From contig NC_049987.1 of assembly GCF_000003815.2 (NCBI RefSeq), positions 7,940,877 to 8,004,876 on the forward strand: a stretch of 64,000 bases of DNA, given 5' to 3'. The translations under genes and the position numbers were made by a program. Under the pieces are notes generated by a model. The model saw nothing but the letters and a program-made list of their open reading frames with translations. It was not told the DNA's origin and searched no databases. Origin of the DNA: Branchiostoma floridae (taxonomy: Eukaryota; Chordata; Leptocardii; Amphioxiformes; Branchiostomatidae). Shown here in pieces: positions 3,301 through 47,255 of this stretch; the stretch's first letter is position 1; each line of letters starts with the position of its first letter.

Positions 3301-6300
3301 TTTTGTAGGCGCATAACTACTGCCACTGTATGGTTGCAAAATAGGAGTGTTTTGCCAGTTTACAGAGACAACCCGTGTTTACAGAGAGGTCCCGTGTATG
3401 GGGAGAGTCACACCCCATGCACGTTAAAGAACCCCCACACGTGCGATGGTGCGGTGTGCGATGGAACAAACCCTTCTGTCTGGAGTTGGTGATTCACTTC
3501 AAATCACCCGGATGGAGGCCTGGCGAACCTCCATACCGTATCAGCCACACGGTGATTCACATCATTCACCCGGACGGGAGACCTGGCGCATCACCGTCTT
3601 GTATTCAGCTAGAAGAAAGGGTGTGCCACGCCGTAAGGGGCGGTATAACCCCAACAGTGCTGTAATACACCGTATGACTATGACTGACTGACTGACTGAC
3701 TTACAGAGACAAAGTATTTTGATGTGGATGGAAAGTTAATCTATCAATTGATGTGAATTTCCCCCACATACAATGGGAGTAAACATAAAGTGTTATATTC
3801 TGGATGACTGGAGTATTTATTTGTGTTTACTTACTTCTTTGAAATATTTTATTGTTCATCTACATGTGCAGGTGACAAAGCAGCTGTGCATACATCCGAT
3901 CAGCCACCTGTCCGAGCAACTGTGGGCCAAACAACACCTTCCGAGTCTTCTGCATCCTTAAAGCCTCCCCTTCCACAACCAGCATCAAGGCATGGTCAGA
4001 CAGGGGAGACAGGCAATCATGAGGTACTGTATGGTAGACTTCATATTGTTGATACAAGTACAAGTACAGCGGGGATGTCAGCATATAGAAGTTAGAACTA
4101 ATCTATGCTATAAACATGTATCGTCAGCTATGGATGGATAGTTGCTGTTGAACATGCATGATTTCAGTAGGGCAAGTCATTTGATCTGTCTTCATTAGGT
4201 TATGGGTTTGGACATGATAGGTCCTGACATCTTTGATAACTGGATAAGCTTATTCTTGAGGGGCTATCTCTACCATGTTTTGTATAGGTGCATAACTGCT
4301 GTCACTGTATGGTTGCAGAATAGGGATGTTAGGTCAGATGACTATGCATTTTGATGGGGAAGGGAAGCTTGTAGATATGCAAACATTTGTCATCTGCAGG
4401 AGGCCCAGGCTTTGCATATGCTGCTGCTCGTCACAGAAGGCCGTAACATCACGCAGAAGGGGATTTCCTCTATGGCTAGCAGGGGCAACAGAGATCCGTA
4501 CCCTCCTCCACAGCCAGTTCCTAGAGTGGGACCAGTAGTATCAGGTACAGTGTCAACATCTAGCATACTGACTCTCAGTTTGTATGGTCAAAACTTAGGG
4601 CACCTCTTCAATTTTTTCGTCTAGTGTGTTTCAAAATTTCCAACCCAAGGATGTTTTTTAATAAATTTTTGGTCAGCTGTATTACCCACATCATTTTTCT
4701 TTCATTATCAGACCTCTTATACATGTTGATACAAACCAGTACAGTTGACCAACCCTGCATAAGGACCACCTGGTCATTGTGGCCTGTCTTGTCCTGTCTG
4801 TGTAGACTTGCCACCTAGTGACAGTATATGGTGCTGCAGCTGCATGTTTTCTGCATAAACTGCATAAACTGATATATAGATTTTAAGATATGTGACTGGT
4901 GAATAGTCAATTTTACTGTTCATCAGTCTTTTATATTTCTAAAATAACATCTGTCTAACTTTGTTACAGGATTTCATGCTGGTTGTGACCTGTCTGTGCG
5001 TAACCCGTATTTGGTGTGTCGGATGTTCTGGTGCGATGAAACTGTTCGCTCCAACGTTTCCTGGGGCACCAACGACCCCCGCTTCGACTTCCATCAATCA
5101 GGCCCCGTCCTGCTCACTCCTGCCTTGCTGGAGCGCATGAGGAACAACTTCATGATAATCGAGGTCTGGGACAAGAAGACGTCAGCACAAAACGACGTCC
5201 TTGTGGGAATCGTGAAGCTGCCGCTCCACAGCTTGTACATGTCGTTCCGAGATAAGCGAATCACCCAGGCTCTCCTGAAGTCTCAGTACCCTGTGGTGTC
5301 AGTCGACAACTACATGCCAATAGTGGACCCCTTCACTGGTGTACAGTATGGGGAACTGAAAGTCCTGTTGGCAATGGGAGCTGTTCAGCAGGTACCTTCT
5401 TGTGGCAAATTCATCATGATTCTGTCTTGCTGTATAGATGGCATCCATCCAAGTTTTTGCATTGTAACCCAAAGTTTCTCTCTACCACAAGGGGACCAAC
5501 TTCCTACTCTTACATATATCTGTTAGAATGATAACTGCTATATAATGTAATCCTATCAGCTATTCATTATTGAAGTCATCCTCTCTCCTATGAAACAAAC
5601 AGTTATAATTATATTCCCTGTTGTCCCTTCCAGGTGACAGAACTACAGAGAATAAAGCTGGACAGGGATGATGTGATCCTACCTGACAGACCACAGCACC
5701 ATCTGCACAGCAGGTCAGAATCTTAATTTTGCGGTAGTGAGGAAATGGAGTGTTCACTGTGGTTTTGAGTTCGCTGTAGCACCATACACTGTAGTCACAT
5801 ACAGTACTGTAATGGGTAAATGGTGGTTTAGGGTTCGCGGTGAAGCAGCCTCGCAAACACTGCAAACATAAAACCATCACGAGCGTTTCTGCATCTTGTC
5901 CTGGCACTTAACTTGCGTTTCTTATTTGGTGAAAATATTGTCTACAAAAGTGTGTTTTGTCCCCAGGTCCCAACAGGGTCCTGCCCCCAGTTACCCAGAA
6001 CCAGGAGCACCCCCAGACCAGACGGAGCACATCTTCGAGGTGGTTGTGGAGGGGGTGCGTGGCCTGTCCCAGTTTGAGACAGCTGTGTGGGGGGAGGCAG
6101 ACTGTTTCGTGCAGTATCACTTTCCTGCCCAGCAACAAACTGCGCAAGCTGGAGGGCCTACTGTTAGACATGGTGGGTGCCACCTTGTGGCAGAATATGG
6201 TACTGCAGCTGCATGTTTGACAGTTACTTGTACTAGTATATACAAGATGTATAACTGTTTTCTTTCTGTACAACTCCTTTCATGGCCATTTCCTGAATAA

Positions 6301-9300
6301 CTGTAATGAGCTATTGCTTGCTCATGAGCTCATTACATAACTCAACCCACCCCTTGATACCGAAAAATACATTGAATATGCTTACAATCATTATGTGGTA
6401 TTACAGATCAAAGATCACGCTTGATACACAAGAAAATGAAGCAAATACATACTGAAATATGTGCTTAATTAGCCAATTTTCCAACTAAAGCACTTGGAGT
6501 TGGAGTGTTTTTAGATTAAGTTTCTTAAGAGTATTAGCAGCATAAAACAGCTATGTGCTGTCACAGGTTTGTTTGAACCTTAAAGTTTGTATCTTCACAG
6601 ATTCATGAAAAGCTCAATTCAGATGTAGGCATCACATCTGTTTTCAAACTTTTGTTCCCCTTGATGCAGCGATGATCACCCTGAAACCCCACAGAACAGT
6701 GACCACCCTGTGCGTGCCTGACCCGACGCTGCACCACACGACCAGGCACCGTCTCCAGCTGCCGCAGGGCACCCCTGTGCAGCGGGAGCTGCTCACTGCC
6801 TGCGCGGGGGTGGGAGGGGGCGCCGGAGGGATTCCCTTCGAAGTGTGGTGCAGATACTACTACCCAAACATCAGGGACCAGATCATTGCAAAGGTAACGC
6901 CTTGTCGGTATTGCCTTGCCAGTTTGGAAATAAAAAGGATATACATTGACAAGCTAAAATTAAAGAAACAATCTTATAAGTCACCAACATGCCAAAATGT
7001 GTTTCTTGTGCCTCAGGGTCTTAACAGAATCTCAAGGTTTTATGGTAAAGAAATTACAATAAATATTTTTACTAATGGTATTGTCTTCTGTATGTTAAAA
7101 ACAGGCCACCCTCCCCCTGGCTAAGCTGTGTGGTATGGTCACCATGCACAAGCGAGGAGACACCAGCGTCCAGACGTACGCCCTCCCTCTCACGGCTGTA
7201 CCAAGCGACGACGAGCCTCAGACCCTAGAACAGCTGGCCAAACTACAGGACAGCGGCCTTCTGGACGTCAGCTTGAACTACAGAACAGCGGCTGTCCACG
7301 TGGACAGCACAGGGGCCATAGGTCAACACGACGGCCTTCTGTCGAGCCCGCAGGTTTGCCTGACTGTGGGGCTGTTGAGAGCATCAGGGCTGAAGGCTGC
7401 TGCGCTGTCCCTGAGCCAGCAGTATGCAGATATGGAGTACCCGGCTGAGGTGGGGGTGAACGTGTACTGCAAGGTGACAGTGTCATTCCTGTCTCAGGAG
7501 GTAGGGGCTGCTTACTGCATGTAGTAACAGTTTCTTTATTTCTTGGTTTGGCTGTTCAGTACGCACAGCTAGCCAGGGCTGCCTAACTAGCCTGTGGCTA
7601 TTATAGAGCTGCTGACAAAAGCAGAAACAATACAAATGAAATTTGACAAGGACAGGATACCTATCAATAACAGTATTCTGAATACATAAAAAGATAAGAA
7701 TAAAAAAGAACTTTTTTATATACATGGTGTATTATGTAAATAGTTGTAACAATGTGCAACAAACTTGTTAGTTACTTGTAAGTTTAGCAACAATGTCTGT
7801 TGACTTAGTAGTACATGCAGAGAAGAAAATGGAGCAGATTCTATGACCTCTAATGAACAAAAAAACAAATGTGTATCAGTGGCGGCGGCACAGTGGGGGC
7901 AGTGGGGGCAGTCGCCCCCACAAAAAATATGTTGTGGGGGCCATCAAGCTGAAACCCATGTGTATTTTTTCACCAATAGAAATTTCATAAACCTACCTAG
8001 TCCACCAGCAAAATTTGCCCCAGAAAATGCAGGAAATGGTGAAAGGGCCAGATCTTAAATTTTCCCAAACCTCCCTTGCGACGGCTCGCGCCTAAAGCGC
8101 TGGACACGGTGAAAATGTATTGACACGGACCAAGCATCCCCCTGCCTGTTCTTTGTTCTATTCCTGGTAAAAGGAATATCCCTCTTACCGTGTCTTTTAC
8201 CGGGAATAGAACAAAGAACAGGAAGGGGAACGCTTGGTCTGTGTCATCGTGTAGGCTTATGAGAATTAGTGAAAGGGTCCGTTGTCGCGGTAGGTGGTCT
8301 GTGATGTCACGCAAATGTTGCTCCCAACATGAACTCCACTCGGCATAGCCTGGCAGAACACTGGACGTGACAACATGCTCACAAATCTATCACCAGTATT
8401 TTGCCCCCACAAAGGAAATTTGCTGCCGCCACCTCTGTGTATGATATCCAGTATTGCTTTCTGTACTGCCATCTTTTTTCTGTTGATAGATTTAAGTCCA
8501 GCAGAATATTTTGCTTGCTTTTGTGAACTCCTACCTTGATAGTAGCCTTTCAGCACAAACGTACGATGAGAGCAAAAATATGTGAGCAATTAACTGATAG
8601 TGATATGATTTTCTTCTCTAAAATAAGGAACAGCATGTGTGTGATGAGAACAGTTCCGCGTGCGTTAGCATAAAAGTACAGTACTACAGATGTATGAAGT
8701 AAAAAAAGGGTAATAGTTAAGTAATGATGATATATTTTTTCTTTTCATAAATAAGGAACAGCGTGTGACGCGTACGGTGGCGCGCACGTTTGCCCCCGAG
8801 TTCCAGTATCACCTGGACTTCCCCTGCCCCCTGGTGTGGACGGACCCCCAGGGTCTGAGGGACGGGGCATGTCTGGCCGAGCTGCTGGAGGAGGGGGAGG
8901 TCGTGCTGCAGTTCTGGCACCAGATGCCAGGGGGCAGAGCAGGTGTGTGGCATGAAACTAGGAGACCCAAAGCTATGCCAAAGAATCTTGACTATAACAT
9001 GTGCAAATACAAAAACCAGCAGTTATCATACATTACCATAGAAAGCCACTAGGGGGCACATTATTTGAACATTGCCACACCTACAGTCAACCTGCCTGCC
9101 ATACAACACTTCACCCACTTACAACTCTACAAAAAAAATTCACACAAATGGCCACCGCCTCTGATTTTCTCTCACATACAGCCCCTTTATTTCTAAAATT
9201 GAAGATATTGAATGTGTTTGATATAAATAAGCTGCAAATTAGTATATTCACGTTTAACTGTCTTTCTAACAATCTCCCCGATATGTTTAAAACTTTCCTA

Positions 9301-12300: not shown

Positions 12301-15300
12301 AGGTTTGACTGTGATTTTACTTTGAAAAGTAGATCTTAAGAGTCAGAGAATTATAGACTAAGTGCATAAATCTAATCATTTCCCCTGAGCCTTTTCGTCT
12401 TCTCTTTGTCAACATTCTTGCCTTGGTTTGCTTCTTCTTGTTCAACTAGGTCATCAGTGTGCAAAATTTGATGTTTTGAGCTTGATCCAAATCTTGAGTT
12501 TCTGTGGTTGATTAAGCTTCTAGATGGTTGAGCACTTTCTATGACCAAACTAATGGTTTGGGGCAAGTCTGCTGCCTACATTATCCAAGGGATTTGCAAA
12601 TAAGCCATGATATGGTCTTTTTACATAAACATCTTGTACAAGAGAAGACCACAGGTCATGTACTGTTCTTTCCCTGGATAAGTATGTTTAATGAATGATA
12701 ATTGAATCATGTCGTTTGTAATGTTTTGTTGTGAGTCAGACTGATAAACAAGAAGCTTCATGTTCAGTTAACAAAACTTTTATTCTAATCTTGTGACAAA
12801 GTCAAACTCCAGCGTGACAAAGCAAAATAAATGAAAAATATAGTCTAGGGTTTCCCTCTCTCTAAATACGTAACTGTACTAGACACAATGTCATCTTTCT
12901 ACTCCAGGTATACATTACATACCAGTATACATAAAATACAGTATAAGAAAATATAAATATAATATAGCAACACATTCCCAATATGTTCTACTTTTTTAAT
13001 GAACAAATAAAATAAATAAATAAATAAATATGTATCTATCCAGCTCCATTCTACAGCAATGTGCTAAGCATAAATCATCTCTTTCATCATAAGGTTCTGC
13101 ACAGTGCATTATGAAATACACCTTTCCACAGGCAAAAAAGTAAATGGCAGCAAAGTTGCATGAGCCTTATTCCAATGGGATTCTGTATAACATCAGACGG
13201 TCACTAAAAGGATTTTTTAACTTTTAAATGGCGCCTCCTGATTGGTCAATGTTGCCTGGCTATACGACAATTATGCTAATCAGTTTTTGCAAAGCAAATA
13301 TCTCATTGTGAGATACAACCCCACATGTTACCCCTTACTGGGATAGATTTAAAGAATGCAACATGTCGTCAAGCATACACGGTACACGAGACGGTTGCCA
13401 GGACGAAGCTCGTCCGTCTCACGGGATGCTCTCACGCTCCTCCAGTTCGGCAAAGACGCTGGACAGGTGGCTCAGGAAGATTTCGTAGTCACGGAAGGTC
13501 AAGTAGGCGCGCAGGGTCATGTAAAACTCACTGGTGGCTGTGCCAGGGTCGACATGCTCATTGGTGTTGTCCAGGGGGTGACCCAAAGCGTTGGCCTGAA
13601 ATCCAGAAAACAATGAATGATTAGAAAATTAGAGGTACAATTTCTATGTCATGTTTTACAAGACGTAGTGATGTAAGAATGTAAGAGGGCAGAATGGGCT
13701 GGTTGGGACAACCCCACCATAACTGACCTTCGTACTCTATTGTTCATGTTGGGCAAAGTTCAACTTTGCACAGGTAGACTTTTAAGCTTTGGTTCGTGTA
13801 TGTTAGCACTAGAATTCCATACAAGATGTAGGTCATCATTCAACAAAGTAAGGTTAAGAAAGATACCGCTCGGTAAGGCTCAATTAATTGCCTTTTCAAC
13901 TTGTCGATTGCTTGTTTTATTCAAGAAAAAAAAAGCTATTTACCGTAACAGCCAGGGAAGTCTGGAGCTCTTTTGTTTTGTCATGGACCTCTTCTACCTG
14001 GCGACGCACAGCTTCCACCTCTCCAGTGTTGTCAGCTGCCTCAAGTGCAAGTTGATCCAGCTTCACTGCTTCCAGATGCCTCTCAAAGATGTGGAGCTGA
14101 GACTTCAGGGTTTGAAATACCTCAGAATCCTGCAGAAAGGAACAAGGATGAGCCATGAGTCATCAGCTAGCTATAGACATCTTTGTGTTGGTTCTGTGTC
14201 TACAACTAAACATACTTCTTGGTTTCTGTCTTACGGCTGTGTTCTCCTTTTGGAAAGAATGATTCAATTGCCGGTGTAAATGCCTTGTTTGCCGAGCAAA
14301 CCTTTATTGTGGTGGACAGATTTATTTACGGACACACTTTGTCTGGTCAGAAACTACATAAAACACTTGTAGCTATTTTGAACCTTGCCTTGTCATGGTT
14401 TCTGGATGGGAATTTCTCATAATAAACAAGGGTTTGTCAAAGATATTTTTGATTCAATGAGAAGAGAGCAAGGGCATTAACTATAGAATGTGGACAGATT
14501 TATTTATGGACACACTTTGTCGGGTCAGAAACTATGTAAAACACTGGTGGCTATTTTGTACCTTGCCCAGTCATGGGTTTTGGATGGGAATTTCTCTAAA
14601 TAGGTCTGATATTTTAGATTCAATGACTAAATGAAAAGTGAACAAGGACAAACTATAGAATGTGACAGATCTGACAAAAAATTTTTCCTTGAGACACAAT
14701 AAGAGTTTGTCTTGCCAAAATCCTTTCCAGTAATTGTTATCAGAAGAAAATATGATCATGCTGCCCCCTTACCTCCATTGCACTTGTTTCGATGTCCTCA
14801 GCTTTTATGATGTCCTCAGAACTAGGGAGTGTGGTAACGGAGAGATCCGGGTAGCTGGCTGTTCCACTGAAGTGAACAGTGTTCTGTAGGACAAAGAAGA
14901 AGTACATGTATTAGTCTTTACTGAGTTTGTGGTTACGCAGTCTGGTATCTTATATTCGATTTTCCAGCAAGAAACTCATTCTCTATATTGGTGGCTTCTA
15001 CAAAATTTTTTTCGGACCAATTTTGTACACTTTAAGTTGGAAGTATTGTCCAAATGATTTTTCATTCAAGATTCAGTGTCAAGTGATGCAAGCAGTTTCA
15101 CAGTCAGCATATTGTACAACTGCCCCTGTAGAAAAGGGTTTGATGCTACACTATTTAAATCAAACTTGCTGATAGGAAATTGAATTACACAGTATTATCT
15201 GGTTAGGGTATAAACATATGCACTACCATTTTGCACTGTGGCAAATCATTGACAGTCTAACTGCCCAACAGACAGGCAAGCGGGTACGGATGGTGCATTG

Positions 15301-18300
15301 TATTTTTAATATTATTAGGTACTTACAATGGTTCCAAGGGCCGTAGTTGTACGTTCCAAAACAAGCTCCGTCTTCTGAAGGCTGGCGGTTAGAGCTTCGG
15401 TTACAGTCTGCTGTGAGCGGACAGCAGGAGCCACTGTTGTGACTGGCACTGCTGCTGCAGAGTGGAAGACACCGCAGAAAACTGCCAACATGTACACTGC
15501 TGTCATCTGTGCCATCGTAGTGGTAGCCTGGAGGTTTGTCTGGAGGGAGGAGAGCGTGGTCTTCGTAGCGTCGTGGACCGAGGGAGTAACTTTTCCTCTC
15601 CAGCAGGCTTGTATTTATGGGGACCATGATGTTTTTTTAAGTAGGTGTCATACAGGTGTAAATATCCTGGCAGGAAGGTGGGAAAACTGGGGGAATACAA
15701 AGAATCCAATAAATAAGTATGTAAGTGAGGGGGTTGACGTCAGTAGTGAAGCGTCTCTTCATCCCTGCCCCTGAATTCCTGGAAGATTTCTTGATCAATA
15801 GGGGGGAACCCCCACCATTGGTGCCAAGCCTCTGGGATTGTGCTTAATCAAATTTGTGACGTCACACTTCCTGGCTCTCCAGTGCTACCTGCTTGACACG
15901 CCCACTTCTTACGTAGACAAGCAAGAGGAGTACTTGTGGGTCAGTTGCCGGAAACTCTGTGTACTTGTTGGTTAGTTGCCGGAAACTGTGTGTACTTGTT
16001 GGTTAGTTGCCGAAAACTGTGTGACTGTACTTGTGGGTTAGTTGCTGGAAACTGTGTGTGTGTCAACAGCAGGAATGTGGAATGAAAGTATAGCAGGGGC
16101 GTACTCATGAACACTCATGGAACCTACATTGTACTGAAAACGGGTTGTCAAACAAGAAGCCACAGCCCGAAAGTGTAAAAAGGATAGTGGGAAGTACTGT
16201 AAATGCATTTAAGTTCGCGGGGATTTACTTTCACAGTAGCGTGAAAATGGTGTGTTCGCAGTGGTTTTAAGTTTGCGGTAGCGCCATAGACTGTAGTCTA
16301 AAACTATAATGGGAAAATGTTTCCAGTGGTTTAAGTTCGCGGTGAAGTGGCCACTGTGAAATCCGCGAACATAAAACCACCGCGAACATTTTTGCATTTA
16401 CAGTATATCAACTTAAGCTACTGCTGGTAAACAGGTGGTTGTTTTAGATACCTGCAGCATAGGTTTTTTTTAAGCATTTTCTGTCATACTTTTATGGTAA
16501 CATTAGGAAAATGTGTAAAAAAAGATTGTATAAAAGCTGTGATGTCTTTTTTGTTTATCAAAATTTCTTTCTAAAGTAAGTCAACTATCATCACAGGAAC
16601 TATTAAAACAGCTTGTTTATATTAAGGCTTCTGAGTCTGCTGTTTATTTTTCTTCAAGTGCATTCAAACAGAAAAAGGAGGAAAAAGCACTGCAAGCCAG
16701 TCTGTTTCCGTTCTTTAAACAACTGTCAGAGCCTATCCCTTAATTGCATTTCCTGTGTAAAACTAAAACAAGCATATATGTTATGCAAGGAATAAATAAG
16801 GAGTAAAAGTTTAACAACCAAGTCAATAAACATCTTGTTTGAGAGATGACTAGACCACCCATACCGTTTGTTTTGTGCCCGGAAAATACTGAAAGTAAAC
16901 TGGTAAAAAAAGGTTTAACAATAATATTGACTTTTACCATTGTCAAGGTGTGTGGAGCACTGTTTAGTCATAGGGATATTACTAACTGTTCTAATAGACA
17001 GGAACCTTAGTCATAAGATTGGAGAGAATATGTTGTATTACTATTATGTACCAAATCAAGGCAAGAATAAAATTTAGCCAGGAAGGAAGTGGAGCCCCCA
17101 CACTTTGAGGTGGGAATGAATTTCTTATGACTGGAATGAAGCATTTTACCACCTCTTTTTTTACCGTTTTTGGTGTGTCCGTGTGTCAGTCTGTGTGTCA
17201 GGAAATTTGTGGTCAGCATAACTCAATGGTATGTGGGTAGGGGTTTGGATGACGAAGGTCAGTGTCGATTTTGGGCCCCCTGGTATGTGACCTTTTGTTA
17301 AGATGCTGCATGAACACCTAATCTAAGATTTTTCTACCCTCACCATTTCACACATATTGTATGTATACTTTCATGCTACTTAGTGACTACAAGTATTTCA
17401 TTCTCCTGAAATAAATAGTGCTTATTAATCTTTTGCAAGACTTCTCTGATGACTTAAGTGTATTAAATCTTTAAATTGTTAGGAACGTTTGTGAAATTGT
17501 CATAAATGGATTAGCGGCTGGCACTGTCAAGTCATGCACATGCTTGTTCTATCAAGGAGGTTAAAAAGCACGTTTTTTAACCTCCTTGGTTCTATAAAGT
17601 AATAAACTTGTTAAAAGATTATTTGAACAGGAAAGGTCAGTAGTTTGTTTGCTTCTACATGTAGTATTACGTCAAGGGCAGAAACAGGCGACACTATATA
17701 TATGTATATATATATATACACTACATATGATAATCAGGTTAAACACTTTCAATTCGGAGAAGTGATTTTTGCAAAACAGTTCGAGGAAGGGATTTAATAT
17801 TTCAGAATATGACATGACATAAAGACAATAACAGTTACGTAGGTAACATTAACAGGTCCCAGGGGAGTATTCTGTAAATGTAGGTCAGTTCTGCAGAATT
17901 CCGTGTGCACTATAGTCACTGTTTGTAAAGTTCTGTTCCTGTTCTCTTTGGCATTCTGAAGTATTACCTGTACCAAAAGTACCATAAACCCTCTTATAAT
18001 AAATTACAGTAATCATAGCATTTTACTGCCTGCATTTTAAAGTGAACAGAAAATCACCTCAGCCAGTTAATTGCTGGTTAAAGATCAGACTTATCCAGAA
18101 TGATGGTAATCTGTTTTCAATGGCCTTAAGTCTTAACTCTAAAGTACGAACTACCTGTTACCAAAGGTATTTTAAGATTTGCCCCAAACCAAGATCAAAA
18201 CACTGCCGAGACCTCTCCCTTTGGCTGTATACTCATTTCCGCCATACACATCTGTCAATAATGTGGTGACAGGTCAGAAAGCAGCTTTGTGGGAGGGACA

Positions 18301-24300: not shown

Positions 24301-27185
24301 TATCAGACACTTTACACCCCTTCATCTTTAGTGTTGTTGGCCGCCGGAATAGACCTTTGACACAAATACATGTGTGTATATCGGGTTACATTTTGCCGCG
24401 TGGAGGATGCAAAACACTGTACAGATGGTTGTACTGCAAACTGATGATTACCCGCTTGGAAATAGCCACAGCACGCCGTTCAAGTTGCAACGAAAGGTGC
24501 ATAAGTTTCATGGAACGGTATGGCGCCAGGATCGATTCTACGTCACGGTCTACTGACCCAACAACCTCATTTTTTTTACCAACGCGCTACTGCGTGTGAC
24601 GGTAAATACTCAGCGGTAGTTGTCGGGATTTTTTTGTTGCCTGAATAAGTTTGTAATCTACAACACTCCATTCATGTCAAGAAAGGAACAATAGCTTCAG
24701 CATAAAGTAATTAGCAGCGGACAAACATAACGAGTCTCGTCAGAACGAATAAAGGTCACGCCCTCCGGGAGCGCCGTCGTTCTCAACGCAACGCGACGGT
24801 GTTTTCAAATTGAGACATTTTCATATTAGCATGGTAGGAGAGAAAATATATCGTGGATGGGATGAATGACAAAGGTAAACAACAATATCACCATGTTGAA
24901 TACAGAAATTATGCTTTGTTTTTCTGCCAGATTGGAATAAGCTGACTCTTGGTGAAAAACGCAACGAATAAAGGTTAACTAGCGTTACAGTCAAACCTGT
25001 CTAGGGACTGGAAGAAATGGTCACAGTACAGTATACTTAAACACCACAAATCACAAAGAGGTCTGATATGCAGTGTTCGTGGGCAAGAATCTTGTGTAAA
25101 GCACTGGATATACTGAGGCTTGCTTCAAATTAATGTTTTTTTTATTCATAATTTCATAGACAATATGTCCAGACCATCACACAAGCTCCATTTTTCCCAT
25201 GTACATGTCTAGTTTGTGATGGTTTGTGGTATCTAGACATACCCGTCTTAATGCTTGAGTCAATAGGAATAATAATACATTTGTGTAGTCTAAGCGGCTG
25301 CAGAAAAGTGGTCACAATGGTCCTTATGAAGAGGTTGGCACCTGTATAGGTTTGACTGTATAGTGCCGATCTGAGGGATGGAATTTTCCACCTTTTACAG
25401 GAAGTCCCTGAAGAATCTCTGACATCATTCATGATTCCAGGAATGTTGACCCTTATTTGACTTTTTTATGGGAAACCCCCATCATGATAATGAGTGTCCT
25501 TCATCCTTACATCATGTCACAAGTATGCTTTCAGGAAGCAACTGCTTAATGTAAATTATTGATTAACATTTTTTGGTATTTTGGAGTTCCTGGTTGAAAC
25601 AAGAATTTCGAGGAAATGATAGGTACTAGCTTACATGTACATGTAAATCAAAAGTTTGCAATGTTTATGAATTTGTGGTTGAACCCGGGAGAAAAATGCA
25701 AACATGGCACTTGCACTTGAGACAAGTGTTTGCGTCATTACCTAACTGTTTGGGTTTGTTGTGAAACAACAGTACTCGTAGTTATGCAATTGAAGACAGA
25801 ACATAACATTGATTGATTGCATATAATACTTCATGGGGAGAGGTTACTACAAAAAACAGCTAACTTAAAAACATGGTAAAAATAACCGTAGTTTACTGCA
25901 GAAATTCCAAATCCAAGTACCACTACAACACAAAGATTTTGTATCAACCAGTTCTATCTTGATCCTGCCTTGCAGGTATTTGTCTTCTTGACTTCATGAT
26001 TTTTGACCTTTTACTTTGTACATGTAGTTGTCTGAAGAAATAGAGGAGGAACTGTCCGATGAAAATACAGAGCATAGACGGAGCCATGCACTACCCAAGA
26101 AGGACAGTAGAACAGACAAGGACAGAGAAGACCATATACCTACTCCAGAAGACTCCATCCCTGCCCACGTGGGTGTGGAAAGAGCCGTGCACCTCTCCTC
26201 CATTCCAGGAGGACACAGTGTGATTCCAGCCTACTATGTGACATTCCAGCCTCTACAAAAAGGGGGCGCTGTTACCACCCATGTGTCAGAAGGGAAGAAC
26301 CCCCTGTGGAACTTTGATGGTGACGTGTACCTTGGGAGATTTCTCCTGGGTCCGGACCGCAGTCTTGTGTTTAAAGTGTGGCAGAAAACCTCGGAGAAGA
26401 AAGAGCCTGGCAAGTTGAACTCCTAAGAAACCTCCTAGCATCATCATGTTTAATCTCAGTGTTTTATACATTTTTGTGTGGCATTAACAATGTACAATGT
26501 AGTATGTCTTACATGTTTTACTCTTAACCTTCACTATAATCAGGATACTTAATGCTTAAGTTAATGGGAGAAATTAATGAAGGGACCAAAAAGTGGTCAT
26601 ATTGAGCAGGTGGTCCTTATGTAGAGGTGGTACATGTATGACTGTATAACTGAAAAGATACTGTAAATGCGTTTAAGTTAGCGGGGATTTAATTTCGCGG
26701 TAGCAGGAAAATGGACTTTTCGCGGTGGTTTTAATTTCGCGGTAGCACCATGCACTGTAGTCTCTTACTATTAGAAAAAATATTCGCGGTGGTTTTAAAT
26801 TTGCGGTGAAGCGGCCGCCGCGAAAACCGTGAACATTAATCCACCGCGAACATTTCTGCATTTACAGTTGTGTTTATCATTCATATCAAGCATGATGTAG
26901 ATCTTCTCCCTGTGTTCCAGATGTAACACAGGACCGTGTGGTTGGCTTTGCCTCTGTGGACCTGTCTACATTGTCAGCAGGTCTGCACTTCATCTCAGGC
27001 TGGTACAACATCATGGACTTCAATGGGCACTGCCACGGACAGATCAAGGTACACTTGTTAACATCAATCATTGTTACGATAGTGCAACATTAAGCTGGTG
27101 TGTTAAGGGCCACAAGTTTTGCCAGATTTACAGATAGAAAGTATGCTAAGAAGGGTGTAGTAGCAAGAATTGCTAAGGGAAGGTA

Positions 27186-27223
<38 letters not shown>

Positions 27224-30200
27224 ACAGAAGCACACACACATCTTTTTCTTTTATCCATCTATAAACATGGGGTATCATGATTGTGTAGATACGGATGAAA
27301 CTATGTTGAAAAATAGAGTCTTATTCTTTTATTAGTGAAATAAGTTTTTATGATTCTTAACCTCCAGGTCAGTGTAATGCCCAAGGAGAGAGTTTCTCCG
27401 AGCCGGCAGAGACCCAGCATGCACCCTCCCCTGATGTCTGGTCTCCATGGCTACACCACCACTGCTGCCTATCCCATGTTCCCCAGCCACATCGCAAGGT
27501 ACCCAGAACAAGCTGTGAAGCTCCACAGGTCAGTACACTAACCCTTCAACCTGCGGATTATCTGACAAACTTTGTCAGTAGCATTCAAAGGGTTCAATAA
27601 AGTCTCAATAATTATTGAACCTCATCAACATAGTCTTCTTCTTTATCTCAAGACAACAAACACTAATATCATACTATACAGAATATGCTTTTAAGTGCTT
27701 TTTGATTTACGGACCTTGTAGTATCATTGGATTAAGATGAGCTTGATTAAAAGAGTATGGGGTTGATGAAAAAATATAGAAAACATCAGACATTTAAAGG
27801 GTACTGTTTGTCTTGACTGTTACTGTGCTCTAATGATGTAATCTTCCCCGGGTCACTCTTTCACTCCATTGCAGACATTGATTCCACTGCAGTTCTCAAG
27901 AAAACAATTTCTATCCTATCTTTACAGTCCAAGTAGACCAAAGCACTTTGCTGAGCACTACCTGAATGTAAGACAGTACCACAGGAGTCTGCAAGAACAG
28001 CAGCAGGATGGGCAGGAGTCTGGGATATTACCACATCAGGCAGACAGGCATGATGTAGATGGGGACAAAGAGACGCAGCTCATGGACAGCAAGGAAACAT
28101 CCAGGTCACTGCTACTGCAGAATCTAAGGTAGTGTATTAGATACCTCCTCGATATACAGGGCTTGAAATTCATTTTTGTGATTAGGTGCACTGTTGCACC
28201 CAGCTTAAAAGATTGGGTGCACCAAAAAATGTTTGGGTGCATCACTTAGATTTAAGTAATAACCTAATAATAAAACTTAGTTACAAGCTATCAACTTCTT
28301 AAACAAGTAAAATGACAGACATTTTTATTATCTTTCTAACACTAAGTTAGATGTCAAGAATATGATGTATACCCGTATACTTTGATATTTTTACATACAT
28401 AAACGTAAGAAAATATTTGGGTGCACCCTGTGCACCCACAGAAAATAATTGGGTGCACAGCTCCAATTTTGGGTGCACCTGGGTGCACATGCACCCAGTA
28501 TTTCGAGCCCTGATATAACATCACCAGTCCACTCATAATGCCACCAGGTGCCTTAATATAGCCTCATCAACAAAACATTGTAATAGAGGCCTTCTCTAGA
28601 TTGTTTTGAACACCTTCAGACATTTGTATCTGAAGTGTACATACCTCGGAAATACTGATGCTGCATTGGCACATCTCTTTGAATCTTTTAAAATTCATGT
28701 GTTTTTTCTCATGTGTCAGTATCTGGTGGAATTATGAGATTTTTTGTAATGTAAGTTGGAAACTGTAGCATGTTGTTTGCGAGTTGAAGACTAATTTGAT
28801 TGCTACTAATTGCAATACTTACAATGTTTCAATTATTCACTCTTTATTTCCTGACTTGTGAATTTTTTTAGGAAGAACATGGAAGAGCTAGACCAGCTAA
28901 AGGGAAGGATGCAAAATCTTCTGACAGGCAAAAGCACAGAGACCACAGACACTACAAAACCACATGAAGTTGTTGAATTGCCAAGTTCAGTTTTGTCCGG
29001 ACATGGAAGAGATGATGACCCAGAGAATGGATCTCATCTGAGGAGGACATATGACTTAAGTGACGGTGTGGTACCTGTAGGACATGAAGAACCAACCAAA
29101 ACAGATAACACACCACATGACCACAACGGTGATGATGACGTTCTTTTAGATACAGTACACAAGGCTGTTGGTGGTTTGTTCAGGTCTAATTCCTTGGAAA
29201 GGGCAATACGAGAAGCCAACAGTGAAAGCCAAGATGAGCAACTACCAGGTGTCTATACAGGAATGACTCATTCTCAACGTCCTCAGCCCACCCTCCAACA
29301 GTCTCAAGATGCAATGCTATCCCATCATGCACAGCTGACAGGTCAGGATTTTACCGTCCCAGTAGAAGATGTACGAGGTGCTGAAGGTCATAGGTCACAG
29401 AGAGATCGACCACACGCAGGTGAAAGGTTATCCTATTCTGAGGACGATTCCATCAAGTGGGAAGATAGTATCCAGTTCAGTGATGCAGATGAGGAGGATG
29501 TTGTTCCAGTCAGGCCACTGAATGATGTTTCTTCAGCACACTTTGCAAACTGGTCACCAGAAGCAATCGCCGGTACACAGGAACAAGAGATAGCACCCAC
29601 AGACAGACTTGCAGAAGACAATGGAAATTTTCCCGGTAATTCTCTTCCTTTAGATGATCCCCACACGTCATTCAGCTATGGAGGTTTAGAAGGACCAGTT
29701 TTCTCTACCGATTCAGCCAAAGAAACGCCTCCTGCTGCTCCAGAAAGAGATCCTCTCCTTGATGACATCTTTGAGACGACTCATGAAGTAGTGAGGTCTG
29801 ATGAGGACTCCCATCAATCCCATGAGGGTTTCCCACTTGAAAAACCAGCCGAGCCAGAACAAAACAACCTTGGAGAACAAGCGCTATCCATGTTTGATCA
29901 TGAACATAACAGGGAAAGGACAAAGTCAATGTCATCTGAAGGTTCTGGATCATTACCTTCTCCTATTCCTCTGACTCCAGATGATATGGACTCTTTAAAT
30001 CATGTAAATGATCAGCAAACAAGAGACAGGACAGACTCCATGGGCAGTGATGGGAGTAGAACCAGTGTCCCTCAGACATCGGAGAACAGGAGGATGGAAG
30101 ACAGTCACAGGAGGGGCAGAGAGAGTGACAAGGAAAATGATTCGGCTGGATCAGCTGAAGAGGATAACAGGAGCCAACCAAGGCTGTATCCTTCACATGA

Positions 30201-45989: not shown

Positions 45990-47255
45990 AGGAAACGCTT
46001 CAGTCAATCGATCGAATAAAACACATTGAGTCAATTCTGAACTATGTACTCTCTGGTCTGGCCACTTGGTTCCAAACAAATCGTTTAACATTAAATGTAA
46101 CCAAGACTAAATGGATGTTATTTGGCACTGCTAACAGGTTAAAGCAAGCACAGTCCTTGACAGTCGAAATTGACCAAGAAATCATAGAAAGAGTTCATAC
46201 GTTCAAATATCTTGGTCTGTACCTTGACTCCCACCTGTCCTTTAATGAACATATAGACAAAGTTTGTAGTAAGGTGTCACAGAGGATTGGACAACTTAGA
46301 CGCCTCAGACACTGCCTGACTTTCAGTATTGCTGACATGTTGTACAAGACTATGATATTGCCTATTTTCGACTATTGTGACACTGTCTGGGGAACCTGTG
46401 GGGCCACCAAACAACGGCAACTACAAATACTACAAAACAGAGCGGCAAGGGTGGTGCTACAACGTAGGCAACGGGACATCAGCATTGTGAACCTCCACCA
46501 AACTCTCAACTGGAAATACCTGGCTGATAGGAGATTTGAGCACACGTGCATTATGGTTTTCAAATGTCTGACAGGCTTGGCACCAACATACCTATCCGCC
46601 ACATTTCAGCACAACTCTCGTATCCATACTTACAACACTAGGCAGACCACTAAACTACACCCACCAAGCTACACCACCACATGTGGACAAAAAACATTTG
46701 CATACTCTGGCACTAGCCAGTACAACAAACTAGCAGATAACATAAGAAACATCACAACACCAAAAGGCTTTAAAACAGCTCTGAAGAACACATGTATATC
46801 TGACCTCGAGTAATATTGGAACTTAGTATGGAAAAGCACCTTTGTCTCTGATGTGCCTTACTGTTTTAATTTCTTTGTTTGTTCAATCTTTACATATGAT
46901 TTACTATCCATACTTTGTAAATTTCAGTTTCATTAATTTTCGATTTACACATGATTTGATATATGATTTGACCTCTGACCTCCACTCCATCTCTTGACAT
47001 ATTGATTTTGACCTTGGAACGTTTTCGACATGAGTATGGACACTGATTATGTTTTGACGCACCGGTTTTATGTTTTCTGTACTGTATGTTGTCCCTGGGT
47101 GTTCAAAGTTTGACTGATTGTTACCACGTTTTTGTCCTGTATTTATTATTTCACATGTATGTTTGATTGGCCCCCTTGGAAATCAACTATGCACTGTTGT
47201 AGGGGCTACCCATCTGTTTCAAGATGAAATAAATAAATAAATAAATAAATAAATT
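45990..47255 (+). mobile_element. 3' fragment of a CR1/L2-like non-LTR retrotransposon with (AAAT)n tail
   Basis: A 232-codon frame (46115-46813), preceded by in-frame sequence (LSGLATWFQTNRLTLNVTKT), encodes the reverse-transcriptase thumb and C-terminal part of CR1/L2-group elements. Motifs are FKYLGLYLDSHLSF, CDTVWGTCG, QLQILQNRAARVVL, FKCLTGLAPTYL and TYNTRQTTK. The catalytic YADD is not in the retained part. About 410 bases of 3' UTR lead into an AAAT repeat at about 47228-47252. It is a 5'-truncated, inactive copy and belongs to a different family from the fragment at 9040. Confidence 0.88.

Follow-up and report, generated by a model that had tools for sequence, protein, structure and literature searches.

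The locus considered here raises the question of what kind of protein is encoded by a small gene on the minus strand of the Branchiostoma floridae genome, within a stretch of 64,000 nucleotides that we refer to as the window. An initial annotation proposed an undescribed member of the interleukin-6 (IL-6) group of cytokines, nested antisense in an intron of C2CD3. The reading that we favour, with a probability of roughly 0.7, is a long-chain class I cytokine, secreted and built of a single four-helix domain. Its gene belongs to a family with nine or more members in amphioxus, in which the published growth hormone-like hormone (GHl) is very likely included, and whose closest matches of solved structure are CNTF and CLCF1, a branch of the IL-6 group.

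The gene has four coding exons, all on the minus strand. Exon 1 (15327..15515; 189 nt, 63 aa; donor GTAAGT) encodes a putative signal peptide, recognized by eye, and helix A, which is taken from a low-confidence AlphaFold2 model and was not reproduced by a second model. Exon 2 (14773..14883; 111 nt, 37 aa; acceptor TTCTTTGTCCTACAG, donor GTAAGG) would cover a long A–B loop, exon 3 (13944..14129; 186 nt, 62 aa) helices B and C, and exon 4 (13419..13595; 177 nt with the stop codon, 58 aa) the C–D loop and helix D. The remaining donor is GTAAAT, and all acceptors terminate with either CAG or TAC AG, in keeping with the AG rule. All exon lengths are divisible by three, and the three introns are thus in phase 0. 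The product has 220 amino acids with a hydrophobic N-terminus; the cleavage site, placed by eye, leaves a mature protein of 198 residues with no cysteine. Residues 196–203 read F-R-D-Y-E-I-F-L, a pattern that may correspond to that of helix D of IL-6. Exon lengths and splice sites agree with the four in-frame exons, phase-0 introns, and 220 residues previously described, and the cysteine-free mature part and the helix D pattern were likewise found as the initial annotation had them.

The genes of IL-6, IL-11, and G-CSF have phase-0 introns that part helix A, the loop, helices B–C, and helix D in the same way, and share the helix D pattern. The exon layout suggested for this gene, that of IL6 and CSF3, holds for the placement of phase-0 introns but not for the number of exons, which is five coding exons in the vertebrate genes and four here. 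As for the proposed host gene, two of the seven plus-strand frames scanned against Pfam matched the C2 domain, both below the cut-off (4948–5523, E 0.0027; 26028–26423, E 0.0055), but there was no C2 match in the other five (5872–6297, 6609–7121, 7099–7521, 8717–9049, and 28855–30225). By these domain matches, C2CD3 as the host is only indicated.

The same genome contains relatives of this gene. The family comprises at least nine genes, namely the window gene and those that we label C12, C4a, C4b, C4c, C4d, C15a, C17, and C18; a second copy adjoining C15a (C15b), with exons 3 and 4 and part of exon 2, was excluded from alignments and counts. In seven genes besides the window gene, the coding sequence is likewise divided into four exons, with boundaries at matching positions. 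Exons were assigned visually in C12 and C4a, where the checked lengths give phase 0, so that in these two and the window gene phase-0 introns part helix A, the A–B loop, helices B–C, and helix D. The exons of C4b, C4c, C4d, C15a, and C18 came from an exon finder limited to phase-0 exons; their intron phase is therefore assumed, with matching length and sequence as support. The junction of exons 3 and 4 is uncertain in C18, and C17 has exons 2–4, its exon 1 not having been found. A hydrophobic N-terminus, judged by eye, is present in six of the nine genes. The closest paralog of the window gene is C12 (37% identity in exon 3, E 0.175; 41% in exon 4, E 0.042), and an hhalign comparison of these two with the other seven gave a probability of 97.5 and E 6.2e-12 over 183 columns, compared with a probability of 0.2 and E 0.34 for a control with the eight-member family reversed.

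These paralogs bear on the simplest alternative, in which the exons of the window gene arose as open frames by chance or belong to a dead copy. Its possible position within a host gene would be compatible with this, but the four exons, all open and bordered by consensus splice sites, the seven other genes of the same layout, and the conservation of positions across paralogs make such an origin extremely improbable. Chance is very unlikely because at least eight relatives occur in the same genome, seven of them with four coding exons assigned. Very probably, the window gene is genuine and codes for a small signalling protein that is secreted.

Evidence on the type of protein comes from profile searches of 177,635 distinct PDB sequences, reported to E 10. 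A seven-member profile, which leaves out the window protein and C12, gave CNTF (5.9e-5 and 9.1e-5) and CLCF1 (1.2e-4) as the top three of 10 matches, followed by five growth hormone chains (E 0.058–0.29), so that class I cytokines were ranked first and made up eight of the 10. The eight-member profile matched CLCF1 at 0.013 and CNTF at 0.031 and 0.046, and with nine members CLCF1 (2.8e-4) and CNTF (1.5e-3 and 2.2e-3) were the top three of 13, with keratin next at 0.29. The reversed eight-member profile had no cytokine among its nine matches, the best of which had E 0.31. The alignment to CNTF is colinear, from profile positions 24–186 to residues 19–180 of the 187 in CNTF. The likeness to CNTF and CLCF1 is low and visible only via the profile: with a three-member profile, all matches were noise, from coiled coils or otherwise, and the window protein alone gave noise-level matches, including JIP coiled coils at 0.034. 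The link of the window protein to cytokines therefore runs via its paralogs.

Searches with single proteins leave room for another explanation, namely a secreted helical protein of some other kind (apolipoprotein-like, coiled-coil, or lineage-specific) that is cytokine-like by convergence. Consistent with this are the JIP matches and a Pfam result for the window protein in which PilJ (0.024) and FlgN (0.03) come before IL11 (0.041), all below the cut-off; IL11 ranked third of seven matches in one scan and fourth of nine in another, after bacterial families. None of the nine family proteins reached the gathering score of any Pfam family. Below the cut-offs, PRF was matched by C4a (0.0091) and C4b (0.044), and IL11 by C17 (0.012) as well as the window protein; in single-protein scans the best scores were 15.9 bits for PRF (cut-off 22) and 15.7 bits for IL11 (cut-off 25.8). 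Structure prediction was of low confidence. A first single-sequence AlphaFold2 run placed helices at residues 13–46, 81–109, 114–143, and 163–194 of the mature chain, an order consistent with A, long loop, B–C, and D at a mean pLDDT of 51; in a second model, computed from a trimmed chain (pLDDT 53), part of helix A became strands. With the first model, none of 165 Foldseek matches reached E ≤ 0.001, the top ones being generic bundles from MIC60, syntaxin, and Smac, and CLCF1 was ranked 27th (E 2.3). Against convergence, cytokines come first for the nine- and seven-member profiles and not for the reversed control, and a relative, GHl, has already been described as a type-I helical cytokine in excerpts of a 2022 review (PMC9010856). 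We regard convergence as improbable.

The cytokine reading is thus preferred, and membership of the amphioxus family in the IL-6 group is largely supported at the level of sequence. The likeness first proposed, to IL-6, IL-11, and G-CSF, stands for the group, but the nearest solved matches are CNTF and CLCF1; IL-6, IL-11, and G-CSF are absent to E 10 from the PDB matches of the seven-, eight-, and nine-member profiles, and IL-11 is approached through the sub-cut-off Pfam matches of the window protein and C17. There are also differences from the CNTF type. In CNTF, LIF, and CLCF1, helix D typically opens with an FxxK motif; in an alignment read by eye, the aromatic residue is present at this place in six of nine family members and the lysine in none. 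CNTF is not known to carry a signal peptide, whereas the window gene seems to encode one.

The closest published relative from amphioxus is GHl, reportedly sequence KJ735508 of Li et al. 2014. The peptides encoded by its printed primers map to C4c (LFLDEVL identical in seven of seven residues in exon 3; TQPTDIT similar, with four of seven, in exon 4), and among ten loci the primers have the fewest mismatches at C4c (6 of 25 and 5 of 23 nucleotides). It is therefore very likely that GHl belongs to the amphioxus family and, judged via the printed primers only, that C4c is its ortholog. The window gene would accordingly be homologous to GHl, as one family joined by the hhalign comparison given above, at 22% protein identity to C4c; C4c has two cysteines, and the window protein has none at those places. 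In excerpts of the published accounts, GHl is a protein of 208 aa that is closest to growth hormone (PMC9010856), is the product of a single gene (PMC5376476), binds a GH-receptor-like protein, groups with growth hormone in a tree, and acts on growth and on osmoregulation or salinity tolerance (PMC9010856, PMC5376476); the published activity is not immune, which counts against the favoured reading. One sentence in the 2022 review mentions that the amphioxus genome has several genes for type-I helical cytokines (PMC9010856). The family is thus very likely known in part, through GHl as a paralog. The proposal of an undescribed IL-6-group member is supported in the ranking of CNTF and CLCF1 but must be qualified for novelty by GHl and the review sentence; among the matches listed from the open-licence literature, titles and abstract openings name no IL-6- or CNTF-type ligand in amphioxus.

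This relationship raises the possibility that the window gene is a divergent GHl duplicate of the growth hormone/prolactin line, with a product serving as an endocrine hormone and not as a cytokine of the IL-6 type. Growth hormone and prolactin belong to the same superfamily, and the published binding, tree placement, and action of GHl fit such an origin, as does growth hormone being the next cytokine after CNTF and CLCF1 in the PDB lists (0.058). Against it, the E-value for CNTF is approximately a thousandfold better, and the Pfam growth hormone family was absent from the lists of all nine proteins (searched to E 10, although the program's filters remove most matches beyond ∼0.1), whereas PRF or IL11 appeared weakly in four. 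Two conserved disulfides characterize the growth hormone/prolactin group, and these are lacking in the window protein, as it has no cysteine. We consider a hormone of this line unlikely, albeit clearly less so than convergence.

Searches for a receptor in the same genome bear on both readings. The Pfam family PF09067 was found above its cut-off at two places on C7, and two exons joined by eye there matched the prolactin receptor (PRLR) best (1.1e-12), which would suit a growth hormone/prolactin ligand, followed by gp130 (1e-6) and CRLF1 (1.3e-3). The C7 stretch also matches PF09240 below the cut-off. A separate genome search with PF09240, the IL6R-alpha family, gave two sub-cut-off matches that were noise-like on reading. 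From these sequence matches, a PRLR/gp130-like class I cytokine receptor ectodomain is present in the amphioxus genome.

Motifs flanking the window gene suggest how it may be regulated. A TATA-like ATAAATA (15612..15618, minus strand) starts 103 nt ahead of the ATG. Further upstream are both of the CRE-like palindromes TGACGTCA in the 64-kb window (15735..15742 and 15857..15864), one of its three STAT/GAS-like sites (TTCCNGGAA, 15776..15784), these three without assigned strand, and one of its two kappa-B-like sites (GGGGTTCCCC, 15803..15812, minus strand; 0.02 expected). The promoter motifs of C4c differ. On the 3′ side, an AU-rich element of four overlapping ATTTA motifs (13013..13029, minus strand) begins 390 nt past the stop, and a possible polyadenylation signal ATTAAA (12995..13000, minus strand) lies 419 nt past it. 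Across the family, TATTTAT occurs 26 times in the sense direction and never in antisense within 800 nt downstream of the nine stops; it is present in seven genes and absent from this interval in C4c and C18.

Taken with the preferred cytokine reading, these features allow a mechanism to be proposed. The window protein would fold as an up-up-down-down bundle with a short B–C turn and long A–B and C–D loops. Its gene may be expressed on demand through the CRE-, kappa-B-, and STAT-like sites, and the AU-rich element would keep the mRNA short-lived. The secreted protein could then bring class I receptor chains together, leading to activation of JAK and STAT; its receptor use, signalling, and any immune role are inferred.

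A broader interpretation, which we hold as tentative and at somewhat less than even odds, is that amphioxus possesses at least nine diversified class I cytokines of CNTF/CLCF1 grade that stand near the ancestral stock of the vertebrate IL-6 group. GHl would then count among these cytokines and not as an early growth hormone, and the window gene would be an inflammatory-type member, inducible through its CRE-, kappa-B-, and STAT-type promoter and controlled by its AU-rich element. If this is true, IL-6-type ligands would predate the vertebrates. The findings also call into question two statements in the published excerpts: that there is a single GHl gene (PMC5376476), since C4a and C4b are 61–62% identical to C4c, and that GHl is nearest to growth hormone (PMC9010856). 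With nine amphioxus ligand genes defined by exon coordinates and a PRLR/gp130-type receptor in the same genome, the origin of the IL-6 group becomes directly testable.

The minus-strand gene at 13419-15515 of the window is genuine and belongs to an amphioxus cytokine family that was already known in part. Its four coding exons, read from the sequence, lie at 15515-15327, 14883-14773, 14129-13944 and 13595-13419. All four exon lengths are divisible by three, the splice sites are GT/AG and the product has 220 residues, which bears out the gene structure proposed in the initial annotation; the cysteine-free mature part is likewise confirmed, with no cysteine downstream of the likely signal peptide. 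The suggested nesting in an intron of C2CD3 is no more than indicated, by two C2 matches below cut-off among the seven plus-strand frames scanned.

When the genome was searched with the window protein, two ordered, exon-sized matches appeared on contig C12 and a single one on C4, none of them strong by itself (E 0.04-0.18). On reading, these regions proved to hold two further genes, which share the window gene's layout of four coding exons split by phase-0 introns. Further searches with these and later-found genes, together with an exon finder restricted to phase-0 exons, identified a family of at least nine genes, named by contig: the window gene (C9), C12, C4a, C4b, C4c, C4d, C15a, C17 and C18. 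The number is a lower bound because the genome search scores only the best candidates. Four coding exons were assigned in eight of the nine, including the window gene; C17 has exons 2-4 only, and the exon 3/4 junction of C18 is uncertain. A tandem partial duplication adjoins C15a and was left out of the count; it comprises exons 3 and 4 plus a portion of exon 2, with no exon 1 found in C15:10349500-10359400. Identity to the window protein is 34% for C12 and 16-25% for the other seven paralogs. Alignment of C9 and C12 with a profile of these seven by hhalign gave a probability of 97.5 (E 6.2e-12, 183 columns), compared with 0.2 (E 0.34) for a reversed eight-member control. In C12, unlike the other members, a long Pro/Ala-rich repeat separates the signal peptide from helix A (∼170 residues by eye; 5313-5999 of the C12 stretch). 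C4a, C4b and C4c each carry a cysteine in the A-B loop and another in helix D, which may form a disulfide; the window and C12 proteins have none.

Passages of a 2022 review (PMC9010856) describe GHl, the amphioxus growth hormone (GH)-like hormone, as a 208-residue type-I helical cytokine, and one sentence mentions several more such genes in the amphioxus genome. The ghl primers printed in PMC5376476 translate as LFLDEVL and TQPTDIT. C4c has LFLDEVL in exon 3 (7/7) and IPPTDVT in exon 4 (4/7), and its primer mismatches are the lowest among ten loci (6/25 and 5/23; 8-10 and 7-9 at the others). Judged from the primers alone, C4c and GHl are therefore very likely orthologs, with the window gene a distant paralog. 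The abstract of PMC5376476 states that there is a single GHl gene, whereas this genome holds C4a and C4b as relatives of C4c with 61-62% identity.

Likeness to known cytokines was assessed against 177,635 distinct PDB sequences, with profiles built from amphioxus family genes only. The window protein alone had two matches, both coiled-coil, and a three-member profile gave noise only. The hits of the eight-member profile were led by CLCF1 (E 0.013), with a designed coil (0.028) ahead of CNTF (0.031 and 0.046) and growth hormone (0.69 and 0.72); cytokines accounted for 5/10 hits. With nine members the matches were CLCF1 (2.8e-4), CNTF (1.5e-3 and 2.2e-3), keratin (0.29) and growth hormone (0.78 and 0.84), cytokines being 5/13. 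A seven-member profile without C9 and C12 ranked CNTF (5.9e-5 and 9.1e-5) and CLCF1 (1.2e-4) first, followed by five growth hormone chains (0.058-0.29), YNG1 (0.4) and RGS5 (1.1), with cytokines at 8/10. A single reversed control, that of the eight-member set, gave nine hits (best 0.31), none of them a cytokine. The family-profile alignment spans CNTF residues 19-180 of 187, with large gaps absent.

In Pfam, none of the nine proteins reached a cut-off. Below it, PRF (plethodontid receptivity factor, an IL-6-group protein) was the sole match of C4a (0.0091) and the top match of C4b (0.044). C17 matched IL11 and nothing else (0.012), and for the window protein IL11 ranked third among seven matches (0.041). 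The single match of C12 was unrelated; C4c, C4d, C15a and C18 had no matches, and the growth hormone family was listed for none of the nine. The membership of the IL-6 group put forward initially gains from the first ranks of CNTF and CLCF1 with the seven- and nine-member profiles, but no Pfam cut-off was reached and the origin may instead lie in the GH group. Published GHl biology favours that GH-group origin, and sequence favours the CNTF/CLCF1 side. The split may also postdate both.

Two single-sequence AlphaFold2 runs on the window protein had mean pLDDT of 51 and 53. The first placed four helices where they were expected, but the second turned part of helix A into strands, and Foldseek with the first model found nothing at E<=0.001; the four-helix fold is therefore predicted only.

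On the receptor side, a genome search with the EpoR/GHR-type ligand-binding family (PF09067) exceeded its cut-off at two places on contig C7 (28.7 bits, the matched stretch being interrupted by one stop codon, and 26.5 bits, or 27.3 with neighbours), with seven other, weaker matches in the genome. The IL6R-alpha family had zero genomic matches over cut-off. Two exons from one of the C7 places, joined by eye, matched prolactin receptor (1.1e-12), gp130 (1e-6) and CRLF1 (1.3e-3), and in Pfam PF09067 over cut-off, with LIFR_D4 and IL6R-alpha below. The class I receptor exons on C7 are nearly identical and ∼41 kb apart; these PRLR/gp130-like copies would represent either a recent duplication or uncollapsed alleles.

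AU-rich elements, taken as a sign of cytokine-type control, were counted in stretches after the stop codons, which are putative 3' UTRs. In 800 nt past the nine stops, TATTTAT occurs 26 times in sense and 0 times in antisense (binomial p 1.5e-8), with at least one copy in 7/9 genes and none in C4c and C18; over 1200 nt the counts are 29 and 1. At that 1200-nt length, nine random windows of the sequence analysed gave a mean sum of 3.3, and 29 was reached in 0/20,000 draws. In the window gene, a run of four overlapping ATTTA begins 390 nt past the stop, with ATTAAA at 419 nt. One further overlapping ATTTA run occurs in the window, at 47230-47254 on the minus strand.

Upstream of the window gene, a motif scan placed a TATA-like box at -103, and a 130-bp cluster (15735-15864) brings CRE-, kappa-B- and STAT-like sites together. 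It contains both copies in the 64-kb window of the CRE-like palindrome TGACGTCA, one of two copies of the kappa-B-like site GGGGTTCCCC and one of three of the STAT/GAS-like site TTCCNGGAA. Two TGACGTCA per 64 kb are not unusual (15/100 shuffles have as many), but their position is. The C12 promoter shares the STAT-type site and TATA box, whereas most other members are without the CRE/kappa-B/STAT/TATA set. With seven motif types scanned in eight promoters, the cluster counts as a lead rather than a test.

The gene, its family and homology, the AU-rich elements and the presence of a receptor are shown; beyond these, we infer that the product is most likely a secreted four-helix ligand that would join class I receptor chains and activate JAK/STAT. 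An inducible promoter would drive its production on demand, and an unstable mRNA would limit it. Among the papers listed from open-licence literature, none named an amphioxus ligand of the IL-6 or CNTF type. The window gene is of interest because a 2026 survey (PMC13203501) reports IL-6 in vertebrates only, and because this amphioxus family makes the origin of the IL-6/CNTF-type group testable.
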